Assembly (NCBI GenBank): GCA_016928495.1
Contig: JAFGKQ010000258.1
Location: 1-8,672, forward strand
DNA length: 8,672 nt
Source of the DNA: Candidatus Fermentibacterales bacterium
GTDB lineage: Bacteria; Fermentibacterota; Fermentibacteria; Fermentibacterales; JAFGKQ01
Reading direction: 5' to 3'
Shown here: positions 34-5,346 of the stretch, piece after piece
How the letters are laid out: every line of letters starts with the position of its first letter
Position numbering within the stretch: the stretch's first letter is position 1
Made by a program: the position numbers and the translations under genes
Notes under the pieces: model-generated
The model's database searches: none
Told to the model about the DNA's origin: nothing
Seen by the model: only the letters and a program-made list of their open reading frames with translations

Positions 34-1721
34 CAAGACGTCCGTATGCGCTCGTTGCGAGCATCCTGATGCTCGCGGCAGGTCTGCTTCTCTCAGGCTG
101 TCGTCGGGTCGACGATCCTTCCTCACCGGAGGGAATGGCACGGCTGGCCAGGACCGACATGGAAGAGGGCCGCTTCGAGGACGCTCTGGGCATCGCCAGA
201 GACCTCCTGGACCGCTTTCCCGATCATCATGATGTGCCGGAGTGGTACCTCCTCGAGGCGAACGCTCTCGGCTCACTCGGCTACTCCGACCAGGCTCTGC
301 AGGCGGCACAGACCGCGGAGAGTCAGTCCAGGTCGGCCTCCACTGCAGGACGAGCCAGGCTCTACCAGGTGGAGCTGCTCGAGGCGGGCTCCAGGTTCTC
401 CGAAGCTCTCGACAGACTTGCCGGACTCTCCATGGAGGACCTGGCGAGGTCCGACGGTGACAGGGCAAGATCACTCGCGCTCACGGGGACTTCGGAGGTT
501 TCCACTGACCAGTTGATAGAGCTCCGCCAGACGACCGCGGGTTGGCTGGAGCTGTTTCTTCTGCTCGAGCTGGAGAGAAGAGCCGCCGCCTCGGGTGACT
601 ACGAGCATGCGATCCTGTACGGCGCCGAGATAGACAGGCTCTTCCCCTCCGCGCGAGAGGAGTATGGACGTCCCGAGCTCGCGGGTCCCGAGAGGCCTTA
701 CATCGCGCTCCTCATGCCTCTCGCCGGAGAAGGCTCCGTCTGGGGCACGCAGGTCGCCAGAGGAGTCCGGCTGGCGTTCTCCCAGTTCGAGGACCTTCAC
801 GCGGACTCCCCTGCCCTTCTGGAGCTGGACACCAGCGTGGCTGGAGAGTCCGTAGCGGCCCTGCTGGAGTCTCTCGCGTCCGATCCCTCATGTGTTGCCG
901 CGATCGGTCCCCTGACCAGCGCCGAGACCCTGGAAGCGGGGCGGCTGGCTCACGACCTGGGCATTCCGCTGCTCTCTCCGACGGCAACCTCCGCTTCGAT
1001 CGACGGCATCGGCAGCTTCGTCCACAGGCTGGTCGTCAAGTCCGGGGACGAGGCGGCCGCAGTCGCGGAGTACGCCGTGCTCACGGCCGGGGAAGGCAGG
1101 ATAGCCATACTCCATCCCTATACCGCCGAGGCGGTCTCCGAGGCGGAGCAGTTCAGGAGAACGGCCGAGCAGCTCGGGGCAACGGTCGTGGCGGTAGAAG
1201 GCTACGAGACAGGGGACACCGACTTCAGGGAGCAGATCAGGTCGATAAAGGCCCGCTCTCCCGACGCGGTGTTCCTGCCGGTCTCTGCGTGGGACGCCAT
1301 ACAGATAGCTCCGCAGCTCCGCTTCTACGATGTGAGGGTCTCGATCTACGGGACCTCCGGCTGGGACAACGAGATGGTGCCGAGACTGGGTGAGGAGTAC
1401 GTAGAGGGTGCCGTCTTCACGGTCAGCTTCGGATCGAGCTCCCTCTATCCACCTGCCGCCAGGTTCAGCTACCTCTTCCGGAGGTCCTTCGAAGGAACCG
1501 ACCCCACCAGAGAGGCCGCGCAGGGCTATGACTCGGCCACGCTGATGCTCAAGGCATGGGAGTCTCCTCCGCACACGAGGAACTCGATCGAGTCCTACCT
1601 GTCGAGGATAACCTGTTTCGATGGCGTTCTCGGCCGGGTCACCCTGGGAAGCAGGGACCTGCCGCGAGTATCCTATCCACTGGTGAGAATAGAGGATGGG
1701 GAGATCATCAGCGTCGAGTAG
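30..1721 (+). CDS. Lipoprotein with TPR-like N-terminus and periplasmic-binding-protein (LpoA/LivK-like) domain
   Basis: This is a 563-residue secreted lipoprotein. It opens with a basic MTRR start, a hydrophobic stretch and a lipobox L21-S22-G23-C24, so the mature protein would be lipidated at Cys24. The following Arg is not a retention Asp, so outer-membrane sorting is likely by the E. coli rule. Residues about 35-205 are Ala/Leu/Glu-rich helical repeats of TPR type (EGRFEDALGIARDLL and similar). Residues about 222-563 match the type I periplasmic-binding fold of the Leu/Ile/Val-binding family: IALLMPLAGEG, then AAIGPLTSAE, IPLLSPTATS, DAVFLPVSAWD and AAQGYDSATLM. TPR plus binding-protein fold is the architecture of LpoA, the outer-membrane activator of PBP1A. 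An ABC-type substrate-binding protein is the alternative, but no permease or ATPase genes are nearby. A GGGAG ribosome site at 19-23 supports the ATG at 30. The function is inferred from architecture only. Confidence 0.8.
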   Translation: MTRRPYALVASILMLAAGLLLSGCRRVDDPSSPEGMARLARTDMEEGRFEDALGIARDLLDRFPDHHDVPEWYLLEANALGSLGYSDQALQAAQTAESQSRSASTAGRARLYQVELLEAGSRFSEALDRLAGLSMEDLARSDGDRARSLALTGTSEVSTDQLIELRQTTAGWLELFLLLELERRAAASGDYEHAILYGAEIDRLFPSAREEYGRPELAGPERPYIALLMPLAGEGSVWGTQVARGVRLAFSQFEDLHADSPALLELDTSVAGESVAALLESLASDPSCVAAIGPLTSAETLEAGRLAHDLGIPLLSPTATSASIDGIGSFVHRLVVKSGDEAAAVAEYAVLTAGEGRIAILHPYTAEAVSEAEQFRRTAEQLGATVVAVEGYETGDTDFREQIRSIKARSPDAVFLPVSAWDAIQIAPQLRFYDVRVSIYGTSGWDNEMVPRLGEEYVEGAVFTVSFGSSSLYPPAARFSYLFRRSFEGTDPTREAAQGYDSATLMLKAWESPPHTRNSIESYLSRITCFDGVLGRVTLGSRDLPRVSYPLVRIEDGEIISVE

Positions 1722-2634
1722 CTCCCGGCCGGTCTGGGGGCTCGATGTGGGCGGCACGACCGCGATACTGGGAAGCCTCGACGCCGATGGCCGTTTCGAG
1801 GTCCTGTCGGAGCTGCGGACGACACCACTTGCGGCTCCGGTCGAGACGCTGAGGCAGGCTGCGGGGATCGTTGGCGATTCGGGTCGCGGGATAGGGGCCA
1901 TCGGCATAGGTGTCGCCGGTCTGGTCGACTTCGACGGGGGAATCGTGCTGAAGGCCCCCAACCTCCCGACCTGGGAGGGGTTCGCGGTTCGTGAGGAGGC
2001 CTCGAGGCTCTTCGGGGTGCCTTCAGTCGCGGACAACGACTGCAACGTCTTTGCCGCCGGAGCGGTAAGCCTCGGCGAGGTGCCTTCGTCCGGGCTCTGG
2101 ATCGTGATCACCTTCGGGACGGGCATAGGCGGCTCCCTGGTGCTGGACGGGGCGATCCAGAGGGGCAGGGGCCAAGCAGGCGAGGTCGGTCACATGTCCA
2201 TCCAGGCCGAGGGAGGCCTTGCGTGCCCATGTGGCTCCTCCGGATGCTGGGAGCGATACGCCGGAAGGGAGGCGCTCCTTGCCTACTACAGGGACTCGGG
2301 TGGGGATCCGGAGGACATCGAGCCGAGGTCCATCGCCGACAGGGCAAGGAACGGATGCGGGAGCGCACTCGAGGCCTTCGACAGGCTGGGAGCATGGATC
2401 GGACGTGGGCTGGCCAACATCAACAACTGCTTCTTCCCCCATGGCATAGCGATAGGCGGAGGACTGACGGGAGCCATGGACCTCTGGGAGCAGAGCGCCA
2501 GACGCAGGTTCCGTGAGAACGCCATGCTGCCCGTATGGAACGTCGTTGTCCTGGAGGCAGTATCGTCCACCGGTGCTCTGGGAGCCGCGGTTCTCGCATC
2601 GCGCCTGCTCATGGGCAGGGAGGACGCCCCCTGA
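1696..2634 (+). CDS. ROK-family sugar kinase (glucokinase-like)
   Basis: This 312-residue protein is the usual length for ROK kinases, which phosphorylate glucose or N-acetylated hexosamines with ATP in the cytoplasm. The ATP-binding motif is DVGGT at 17-21. The catalytic Asp is D115 in ADNDCNVFAAGA. GTGIGG (141-146) is the second phosphate loop. The ROK zinc site is complete: H166 in GEVGH, then C177, C179 and C184 in CPCGSSGCWE. A further GGG loop is at 254-256. An intact zinc site and catalytic Asp with no N-terminal helix-turn-helix point to an enzyme rather than a ROK repressor. The start at 1696 is the only ATG, GTG or TTG in this frame ahead of the DVGGT motif. It overlaps the upstream gene by 26 bp. 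Substrate cannot be read from sequence; glucose, ManNAc and GlcNAc are all possible. Its place between two envelope genes hints at amino-sugar or wall-sugar metabolism (inference). Confidence 0.88.
   Translation: MGRSSASSSSRPVWGLDVGGTTAILGSLDADGRFEVLSELRTTPLAAPVETLRQAAGIVGDSGRGIGAIGIGVAGLVDFDGGIVLKAPNLPTWEGFAVREEASRLFGVPSVADNDCNVFAAGAVSLGEVPSSGLWIVITFGTGIGGSLVLDGAIQRGRGQAGEVGHMSIQAEGGLACPCGSSGCWERYAGREALLAYYRDSGGDPEDIEPRSIADRARNGCGSALEAFDRLGAWIGRGLANINNCFFPHGIAIGGGLTGAMDLWEQSARRRFRENAMLPVWNVVVLEAVSSTGALGAAVLASRLLMGREDAP
2617..2634 (+). promoter_or_regulatory. Ribosome binding site and CTG start of the LptD-like gene
   Basis: AGGGAGG at 2617-2623 is a near-perfect Shine-Dalgarno sequence. Seven bases later lies CTG at 2631-2633, overlapping the ROK stop as CTGA, a direct analogue of the common ATGA coupling. 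CTG gives a textbook signal peptide (MRARLLPAIA onward). In this frame there is no ATG, GTG or TTG between the ATG at 2535 and 2631. Starting at 2535 would add a 32-residue hydrophilic, Gly/Arg/Cys-rich stretch, which looks like out-of-frame ROK sequence. Confidence 0.7.
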
Positions 2635-4853
2635 GAGCCCGACTGCTGCCGGCCATTGCCACCCTGCTCATCCTGTCTTCCCTCTCTGCAGCCCAGGAGG
2701 GTTCCGGGGAGGACTCCCTGACGATCCCACCCCAGGTCGAGACGATCGCCTACTCCGCCGACTCCATGGTCTTCTACCCCGACACCCGGGACATCGTGCT
2801 CGTGGGTGCAGCGCGGGTCGACTACAGGGACATGCGGCTGCTGGCCGACACTGTCAGGCTGGATGCCTCCTCCGAGGTGGTATGGGCAACCGGGGAGCCG
2901 GAGCTCTTCGACGCTGGCGAGTCAGTCCGGGGCGCGAGAATGGTCTACGACATGGCAAGCAGGCAGGGCAGGGTCGATCAGGCGGCGTCCAGGTACGAGT
3001 TCGGCTTCTACAGCGGAGACGAGATAACGAGGATCACTCCCCGGGAGTTCAACATAGTGAACGCCAGGTTCACTACCTGTGATCAGGACTCGGCGCACTT
3101 CTACTTCTTCAGTCCCAGCATGAAGGTCTTCCCGGGCGACAAGGCGGTTGCCAGGCCCCTGTATATGTACGTTTACGACACCCCGGTGCTCTACCTGCCC
3201 TTCTGGGTGTTCCCCATTCGAACGGGAAGGCAGTCCGGCTTCACCATCCCGAAGCTGGGTCAGACCAGCCGGGACGGACGGTACCTCAGGGACATGGGTT
3301 ACTACTGGGCCCCGTCGGACTACCTGGACTTCCTGCTTCAGGGCGACATCATGGAGAAGACCCGCTTCGTCCTGCGGGCCAGGGAGCGCCACAGGCTGAG
3401 ATACGTGCACGAGGGCTTCGTGAGGGGGGAGTGGCGCAGGGAGTTCGAGAGCTCCAGGGATCGCTGGCTGCTCTTCGCCGAGCACATGCACGAGCTGCCC
3501 GAAGAGGTGATAGTGCGGGTCAAGGGAGAGTTCGTCAGCGACAACTCCTACCTGTCCGAGACCCAGCAGACTCCGGAGGACAGGATGGTGAGGGAGCTGC
3601 GCTCGTGGGCGAGCTTATCGAGGAGCTGGAGCAGGGCCAGTCTTCAGGTGGTGCTGGACCGGACCAGCTACCTCGACACCGACCCCGACACGATACCGAA
3701 CGAGGTCACGAGCGTTCAGGAGCTGCCGGACGTCAGACTGACCGTTCCGTCGAGCCCTCTTCTGCCGACGCCGTCCGACCCCTCCGAGAGGAGCTTCCTT
3801 CACACGATCTACTGGAACCTCTCTTCCCACTACGTGGCAACCGACACCAGACGGGAGGATTCCCGCAATACCTACTCCGGCCTCCGCAACACAGCGGACC
3901 TGACCTCCTCGACCCGCCTGGGAGGATGGCTGAGCATCTCGCCCCGCATATCGGGCATCTGCATGGTCTACGACAGGGACAGGAGCGGCAACAGCCTGCC
4001 CTACGCCCTTCAGGGCGGGGCAAGCATCTCTGTCGGAACGGACATCTTCGGGGTCTTTCCGGCCAGTTTCCTCGACATCACGGCGATCAGGCACACCCTG
4101 TCCCCCTCGGTCAGCTTCTCCTTCTCTCCGGACAACTACCTGGAGGGTTCGGGGGACGGGCTCGAAGTGGTACCAGCCGACTCGGCCGCTACAAGGCTGT
4201 TCTCGTTCAGCGACTTCAGCCTGCCGGCCTCGAGACGTCTGCTGACCTTCTCTCTCTACAACTCCCTCGAGATCAAGCGTGCGACCCCCTCGGGCCTTGT
4301 CAGGAGCGAGGTGGCGAGCCTCGATCTCTCGACGTCACTGGACCTGGAGGACGACAGCACCCCCTGGACCCCCCTGAGGGCTTCGCTGGCCATGTCCCCC
4401 ACCGATGCCTTCCAGATGAGGCTCGATGGCTCATGGGATCTCTACGAGGGATCCATGGGCGACATCACGGTCACGAGCTCTCTGCGCCTGGCGGGCTCCG
4501 ATCCCACGCTCGTGCCGGACTCCCTGAGGGAGGTGTCTGCCCAGCTGCTTCCCTTCAGGCTCACCCTCGCCCACAACTACAGGTACTCCCAGGAGGGAGG
4601 ATCGGATCTCAGCAAGCTCAGGATCTCATCATCGCTCGAGCTGACTCCCTCCTGGCACATCGACTACAATGCCTACTATGACATCCTGGAGGGCAGCTTC
4701 ATAAACCACAGCTACTCGCTCAGACGGGACCTCCACTGCTGGGAAGCGGTGTTCGTGCGGCACGTGTCCGATGTGGACACCGGTTTCTACTTCAGGATAA
4801 ACATCAAGGAGATCCCCGATATCAAGCTCGAGCAGCACGTCAGCAACTTCTGA
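2631..4853 (+). CDS. lptD: LptD/OstA-like outer-membrane LPS-assembly protein
   Basis: From the CTG start the protein has 740 residues, normal for LptD, which forms the outer-membrane barrel that inserts lipopolysaccharide delivered by LptA. A signal peptide spans 1-21, with likely cleavage after S19-A20-A21. Residues about 38-115 form the LptA-like OstA N domain (YSADSMVFYPDTRDIVLVGA and a following GARMVYD repeat). The LptD core follows: FTTC ending at C150, TPVLYLPFWVFPIRTGRQSGF at 184-204, and GYYWAPSDYLDF. The remainder is barrel-like, with alternating Tyr/Arg/Ser strands, and ends in Phe. Mature cysteines are C150, C444 and C703. C703, in HCWEAVFVRH, aligns by eye with the second Cys of the E. 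coli CCYAIRVGYER segment, and C150 with E. coli Cys173. The gene is the last of the operon. Low overall similarity to proteobacterial LptD is expected for a distant phylum, so a related OstA-domain barrel remains possible. Confidence 0.82.
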   Translation: MRARLLPAIATLLILSSLSAAQEGSGEDSLTIPPQVETIAYSADSMVFYPDTRDIVLVGAARVDYRDMRLLADTVRLDASSEVVWATGEPELFDAGESVRGARMVYDMASRQGRVDQAASRYEFGFYSGDEITRITPREFNIVNARFTTCDQDSAHFYFFSPSMKVFPGDKAVARPLYMYVYDTPVLYLPFWVFPIRTGRQSGFTIPKLGQTSRDGRYLRDMGYYWAPSDYLDFLLQGDIMEKTRFVLRARERHRLRYVHEGFVRGEWRREFESSRDRWLLFAEHMHELPEEVIVRVKGEFVSDNSYLSETQQTPEDRMVRELRSWASLSRSWSRASLQVVLDRTSYLDTDPDTIPNEVTSVQELPDVRLTVPSSPLLPTPSDPSERSFLHTIYWNLSSHYVATDTRREDSRNTYSGLRNTADLTSSTRLGGWLSISPRISGICMVYDRDRSGNSLPYALQGGASISVGTDIFGVFPASFLDITAIRHTLSPSVSFSFSPDNYLEGSGDGLEVVPADSAATRLFSFSDFSLPASRRLLTFSLYNSLEIKRATPSGLVRSEVASLDLSTSLDLEDDSTPWTPLRASLAMSPTDAFQMRLDGSWDLYEGSMGDITVTSSLRLAGSDPTLVPDSLREVSAQLLPFRLTLAHNYRYSQEGGSDLSKLRISSSLELTPSWHIDYNAYYDILEGSFINHSYSLRRDLHCWEAVFVRHVSDVDTGFYFRINIKEIPDIKLEQHVSNF

Positions 4854-5076: not shown

Positions 5077-5346
5077 GTGACAAAGAAGGATCTGGTAGCG
5101 CACGTTGCGTCCGAGGCAGGGCTGACCAAGAAGCAGGCCGGCATGGCCGTGGATTCCGTCTTCGGCGGGATCAAGAAGGCTCTCAAGAAGGGCAGCAAGG
5201 TCGGTCTCGTGGGGTTCGGGACTTTTTCGGTGAAGCAGAGAAAGGCCCGCGTCGGCGTACATCCGCGCACACAGAAGAGGATGCAGTACCCGGCTAAGAA
5301 GGTTCCTTACTTCAAGCCTGGAAAAGCCCTCAAGGACGGCGTATAG
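5077..5346 (+). CDS. hup: HU-family nucleoid DNA-binding protein
   Basis: At 89 residues this is the standard length of HU/IHF subunits, which form dimers that bend and compact DNA. The start MTKKDLVAHVASEAGLTKKQA matches the HU N-terminal helices. VGLVGFGTFSVKQRKARVG is the HU signature and beta arm. VPYFKPGKALKDGV matches the typical C-terminus. The arm tip reads G60-V61-H62-P63 where E. coli HU has G-R-N-P; the intercalating Pro63 is kept. The start is GTG, preceded by a purine-rich ribosome site (GAGAGGGGG, 5061-5069). Nearly every Lys codon is AAG, consistent with strong expression. The gene has its own promoter and terminator and so looks monocistronic. HU rather than IHF is favoured by overall sequence, but paralogues cannot be told apart here. 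Confidence 0.95.
   Translation: MTKKDLVAHVASEAGLTKKQAGMAVDSVFGGIKKALKKGSKVGLVGFGTFSVKQRKARVGVHPRTQKRMQYPAKKVPYFKPGKALKDGV

Follow-up and report, generated by a model that had tools for sequence, protein, structure and literature searches.

NCBI translation table 11 includes CTG among the possible start codons. CUG accounts for 0.024% of bacterial starts, and its output in E. coli reporters is 0.86% of that of AUG (PMC11497404). The 0.024% share is likely low, as gene finders skip CTG. Genes that begin with a codon other than AUG tend to have the stronger Shine-Dalgarno (SD) sequences, and only 2 AUG-to-CUG switches were counted in 61,358 (Belinky et al. 2017, PMC5622118). Translational coupling of genes that share a 4-nt overlap is well described (PMC10666635).

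The window, by which we mean the whole 8,672-nt stretch of DNA that was analysed, corresponds to contig C20 in a draft genome of 2.3 Mb (337 contigs, completeness 81%). This genome is the sole member of its family in the same-order comparison set. Its named relatives are Candidatus Fermentibacteria, Aegiribacteria and Sabulitectum, of the phylum Fermentibacterota (Hyd24-12). The window carries the following genes:

30-1721, + strand: periplasmic-binding-protein-like lipoprotein gene, upstream of the ROK gene
1696..2634, + strand: ROK-family sugar kinase gene (PF00480, E 5e-50; NCBIfam ROK hits), start at 1696 putative, stop codon TGA at 2632-2634
2631..4853, + strand: lptD, 740 aa if CTG-initiated (PF19838 LptD_2, E 6e-42)
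5077-5346, + strand: HU protein gene, a neighbour in the window
+ strand: glycosyltransferase 2 gene and sugar transferase gene, further neighbours

LptD exports lipopolysaccharide at the outer membrane, and most Gram-negative bacteria cannot live without it. The lptD product passes the profile of the LptD barrel domain (PF19838; 144 bits, cut-off 22.5), and a protein search with it returned a match in 41/41 same-order genomes, mostly at 44-59% identity along almost the whole protein. One of these assemblies (G041, L043) has lptD split over several frames, apparently through frameshift errors. The NCBIfam LptD equivalog cut-offs (PRK03761, PRK04423) are not reached (53 bits versus 683 for PRK03761). 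Since these cut-offs are missed and the branch appears to be a distant one within LptD, 'LptD-like, LptD_2 family' would be the safe name. At the other end of the kinase gene, ATG 1696 is the sole standard candidate for the ROK start before the GxDxGGT motif and gives a 26-nt overlap with the upstream gene. In most sampled relatives ROK starts at TTG or GTG within the final codons of the upstream gene (..TTGAGTAA); the window codon that aligns with this start by eye is TCG, and the ROK start has moved (1696-1760).

The 3' end of the ROK gene reads GAC GCC CCC TGA. The original prediction placed the lptD start at a CTG that overlaps this stop as CTGA, 7 nt past AGGGAGG, in a frame with no sensible ATG, GTG or TTG, and reading of the sequence confirmed each of these points. 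The lptD frame opens 38 codons upstream of CTG 2631. Standard start codons are absent between ATG 2535 (-32 codons) and ATG 2766 (+45 codons), and neither of these two nearest candidates serves the conserved start position. By the code table, every base at 2631 keeps the last sense codon of ROK (CCC) as Pro, so the C is silent in ROK. The elements of the junction are:

2617..2623, + strand: Shine-Dalgarno sequence AGGGAGG, 7 nt (ACGCCCC) ahead of the CTG, duplex energy -11.1 kcal/mol
2631..2634, + strand: CTGA, in which the putative lptD start CTG (2631-2633) shares 4 nt with the ROK stop; standard start in place or one codon off in 41/41 relatives
2631..2693, + strand: predicted Sec signal peptide MRARLLPAIATLLILSSLSAA, from hydropathy, with cleavage presumably before Q
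2535..2537, + strand: upstream ATG inside ROK, rejected as a start; SD of -2.7 kcal/mol, not usable; frame closed in 25/40 relatives
2766..2768, + strand: next downstream ATG, the probable automatic call from frame reading and the rules of Prodigal; would remove the signal peptide

In a folding analysis of the lptD start (2596-2655), the SD is predicted to be paired in a GGGC/GCCC hairpin, no more than in shuffled sequences (z = +1.0). A paired SD would fit a dependence of lptD on ROK translation; shuffled sequences fold equally well.

We read the same junction in each of the 41 same-order relatives and scored the upstream frame and the SD in 40 of them. A standard start is present within one codon of the junction in all 41, exactly in place in 25, which is more than a coincidence of position, and the window is the sole exception. 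The codon that overlaps the ROK stop at the exact position is ATG in 21 relatives (20 counted by script, plus G040 read by eye), GTG in two and TTG in two. In fifteen genomes of genera g7 and g8 the ATG precedes this position by one codon (ATGNTGA or a close form), a 7-nt variant of the overlap, and in one relative (G003) it follows by one codon (CTGATG). The CTG that these last junctions also contain at the overlap was considered as a start in G003, g7 and g8 and ruled out, the ATG being one codon away. Wherever ROK is intact in the order, the overlapping start and stop are conserved as a pair. In four relatives (G015, G009, G024 and G040; loci L002, L010, L017 and L041) the ROK match is absent upstream of lptD, with only an apparent DNA remnant of the last ROK codons ahead of the gene, and the ATG is still in place.

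The original prediction had called for ATG or GTG at the same spot in homologues, a test that came out in its favour in every relative to within one codon, and had named conserved coding of 2535-2630 as evidence against it. The relatives were found to lack such an extension: a stop codon closes the lptD frame within 32 codons upstream in 25/40, which makes the long form impossible there, and 16/40 are without any other upstream standard start. The comparison thus indicates that the start position is ancestral and that the N-terminal extension is not. On the LptD tree the window lineage is one long branch by itself that joins near family f3, with weak support for the join. Since the lineage is a single branch, the CTG would most simply represent one derived change.

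The predicted N-terminus agrees with this position. The CTG-initiated protein begins MRARLLPAIATLLILSSLSAAQ, with two Arg ahead of a hydrophobic core that starts at about residue 5 by hydropathy, consistent with the clean signal peptide originally proposed for this start. Short hydrophobic signal peptides begin at the same place in the relatives. Initiation at 2535 would move the core to around residue 37, with eight basic residues ahead of it.

The SD before CTG 2631 (-11.1 kcal/mol) is the strongest among the window and 40 relatives, in which the lptD SD averages -3.8 kcal/mol (sd 1.6) and reaches -8.4 kcal/mol at best. Values are -2.9 to -4.1 kcal/mol in the f3-family relatives (G004, G006, G008), including -2.9 and -4.1 kcal/mol in the GC-matched G006 and G008. 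Within the window genome itself, -11.1 is strong but not exceptional, being reached by 12% of 76 standard 4-nt overlaps.

Taken together, lptD very probably starts at CTG 2631, within a coupling overlap of 4 nt with ROK; this was the main reading of the original prediction, and the junctions of 41/41 relatives support it. The strong SD would compensate at least in part for the weak codon. The position of the signal peptide, which begins at that very codon, and a fur/outer-membrane protein (OMP) junction with the same replacement elsewhere in the genome (see below) also speak for this start. What counts against it is the weakness of CUG initiation, which would be costly for an essential gene, together with the draft state of the assembly and an SD that is not exceptional for this genome and is predicted to be paired. 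Alternatively, the C could be a sequencing or assembly error for A, G or T and the junction an ordinary ATGA, GTGA or TTGA. Every relative has its standard start at this position or one codon from it, and in a draft genome of 81% completeness nothing else would reveal such a ROK-silent error. However, single-base errors are uncommon in assembled contigs, and for the second, independent ATGA-to-CTGA case and for a weaker third one, a further error would have to fall on the one base that matters each time, so that we regard this explanation as quite improbable. It is highly improbable that translation begins instead at ATG 2535, the sole standard upstream start in the open frame, and adds a 32-residue extension ahead of the signal peptide: the SD is weak (-2.7 kcal/mol), the genes would overlap by 100 nt, an Arg-rich 36-residue stretch would precede the hydrophobic core, and most relatives cannot encode the extension (frame closed in 25/40). 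Further near-cognate codons (CTG 2643 and 2646, ATT 2655) lie in frame within 24 nt downstream, followed by ATG 2766. These would be too distant from the SD, would shorten or abolish the signal peptide and lie off the position at which the relatives start, which makes a start at any of them very hard to credit.

A separate matter is why a weak codon would be kept. The original prediction suggested deliberately low synthesis, with the CTG acting as a throttle that keeps LptD levels low and coupled to the ROK kinase; this competes with compensation by the SD, and not with the start position. CUG is indeed a weak initiator and the coupling overlap is conserved, but every scored orthologue has a weaker SD, and the relatives show no comparably weak start save two TTG. 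The strongest SD of the whole set points to compensation and fits it better, and we consider a throttle unlikely. The SD would then be compensatory and not incidental.

The CTG start bears on annotation. Prodigal accepts only ATG, GTG and TTG and allows same-strand overlaps of at most 60 nt (PMC2848648). It was originally expected that gene callers would miss the CTG and add 32 codons upstream. The former holds, since Prodigal ignores CTG; the latter probably does not, as a start at 2535 creates a 100-nt overlap with ROK that exceeds the limit, and a call at 2766 is therefore likelier. With ROK kept, Prodigal would probably call lptD at ATG 2766, with the loss of 45 residues and the signal peptide. 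If the CTG start is right, the lptD annotation would thus probably be short by its first 45 residues, signal peptide included, because common gene finders ignore CTG.

We then surveyed 758 kb (about one third of the genome) with our own codon-usage gene finder, which yielded 623 genes and 230 close tandem pairs. The 4-nt overlaps comprise 38 ATGA, 27 GTGA, 11 TTGA and 25 in-frame CTGA. At most CTGA overlaps a standard start lies within a few codons; six are orphans without a usable one. An SD of -8 or stronger precedes 4/6 orphans, where other codons of these zones would give 8.4% (binomial test, P = 0.0006), and 3/5 when lptD is left out (P = 0.005); the thresholds were picked while looking at the data, and both P-values are no more than indicative. 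Orthologues of these four back lptD and fur/OMP clearly and the GT9 gene in part, and they speak against L257. Five relatives, with 400 kb in all, gave 0/4 orphan CTGA cases with a strong SD. The difference in strong-SD orphans between the window genome and the relatives (4/46 versus 0/30) is not significant (Fisher test, P = 0.15). Three further genes are of interest:

L181 4300-5007, contig C46, - strand: fur/OMP junction, second probable CTG start; CTGA, SD -11.8
L161 6032-7114, contig C22, - strand: GT9 glycosyltransferase (PF01075), probable CTG start; CTGA, SD -11.1; epimerase-like gene upstream
L163 10263-11039, contig C40, - strand: Mut7-C/ubiquitin-fold protein, no standard start near the conserved N-terminus

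The first reads clearly as a second clean case of ATGA replaced by CTGA: in relative G005 the junction is fur-ATGA-OMP with an SD of -12.2, and in the window genome it is fur-CTGA-OMP, two residues off in the alignment. Both names were assigned by eye from the sequence, the OMP being without a Pfam match. Orthologues partly support the putative CTG start of the GT9 gene, in which the first standard start lies just 28 codons downstream; in three of them the start precedes the CTG by three codons, and in others it is an ATG where this genome has GCC. Candidate starts of the Mut7-C gene are a CTG at +14 after GAGGGGG or a CTG in the overlap.

Several other candidates were set aside. Most orthologue alignments of L257 begin only at residue 13-14, in line with an ATG at residue 11; at L170 and a second L181 gene the overlap itself is GTGA or TTGA, so that the CTG is not needed. 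Raw genome-wide counts of the pattern GGAGG-N5-9-CTGA (334 versus 197 for the reversed pattern; 312 versus 105 with ATGA) are uninformative because CTGA is common inside genes. A search for a relaxed initiation machinery found an initiator tRNA with normal GGG/CCC anticodon-stem pairs and IF3 present. The 16S rRNA gene is partial in this genome. It is possible, though rather doubtful, that CTG is a regularly used start in this lineage, notably at CTGA overlaps with a strong SD, and that such genes are systematically mis-started as a class.

We propose the following course of events. The ancestral state in the order would be an ATGA with a 4-nt ROK-lptD overlap, at which ribosomes either end ROK and then re-initiate on lptD or are recruited by the SD. 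In the window lineage, one change of the wobble base in the last sense codon of ROK would have produced the CTG, silently for ROK. The unusually strong AGGGAGG may offset at least part of the resulting loss, and initiator fMet-tRNA would start translation at CTG 2631. We infer that initiation takes place at the CTG itself and that the coupling works by re-initiation. If true, lptD would show cleanly, in nature, how a start codon can be weakened by a mutation to which the overlapping gene is blind, with a stronger ribosome-binding site alongside. That CTGA starts may recur in the lineage is the aspect that most deserves to be followed up. Re-initiating ribosomes may tolerate CUG better than those initiating de novo, which the hint of recurrence makes testable.

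The CTG start of lptD is of a rare but known kind. Its geometry is that of ATGA and GTGA termination-reinitiation overlaps, which is also the most common state of the lptD junction in the relatives; it differs from the 4-nt ATGA and GTGA overlaps listed in PMC10666635 in that the first base of the start is C, and CTG is unmentioned in the part of that article considered here. With other bacterial CUG starts it shares the codon, here with a strong SD, whereas it was identified by comparison and not by proteomics and lies in the coupling overlap of an essential export gene. As in the compensation described by Belinky et al. (PMC5622118), a weaker start goes with a stronger SD than in the orthologues, but their trend concerns GUG and UUG.
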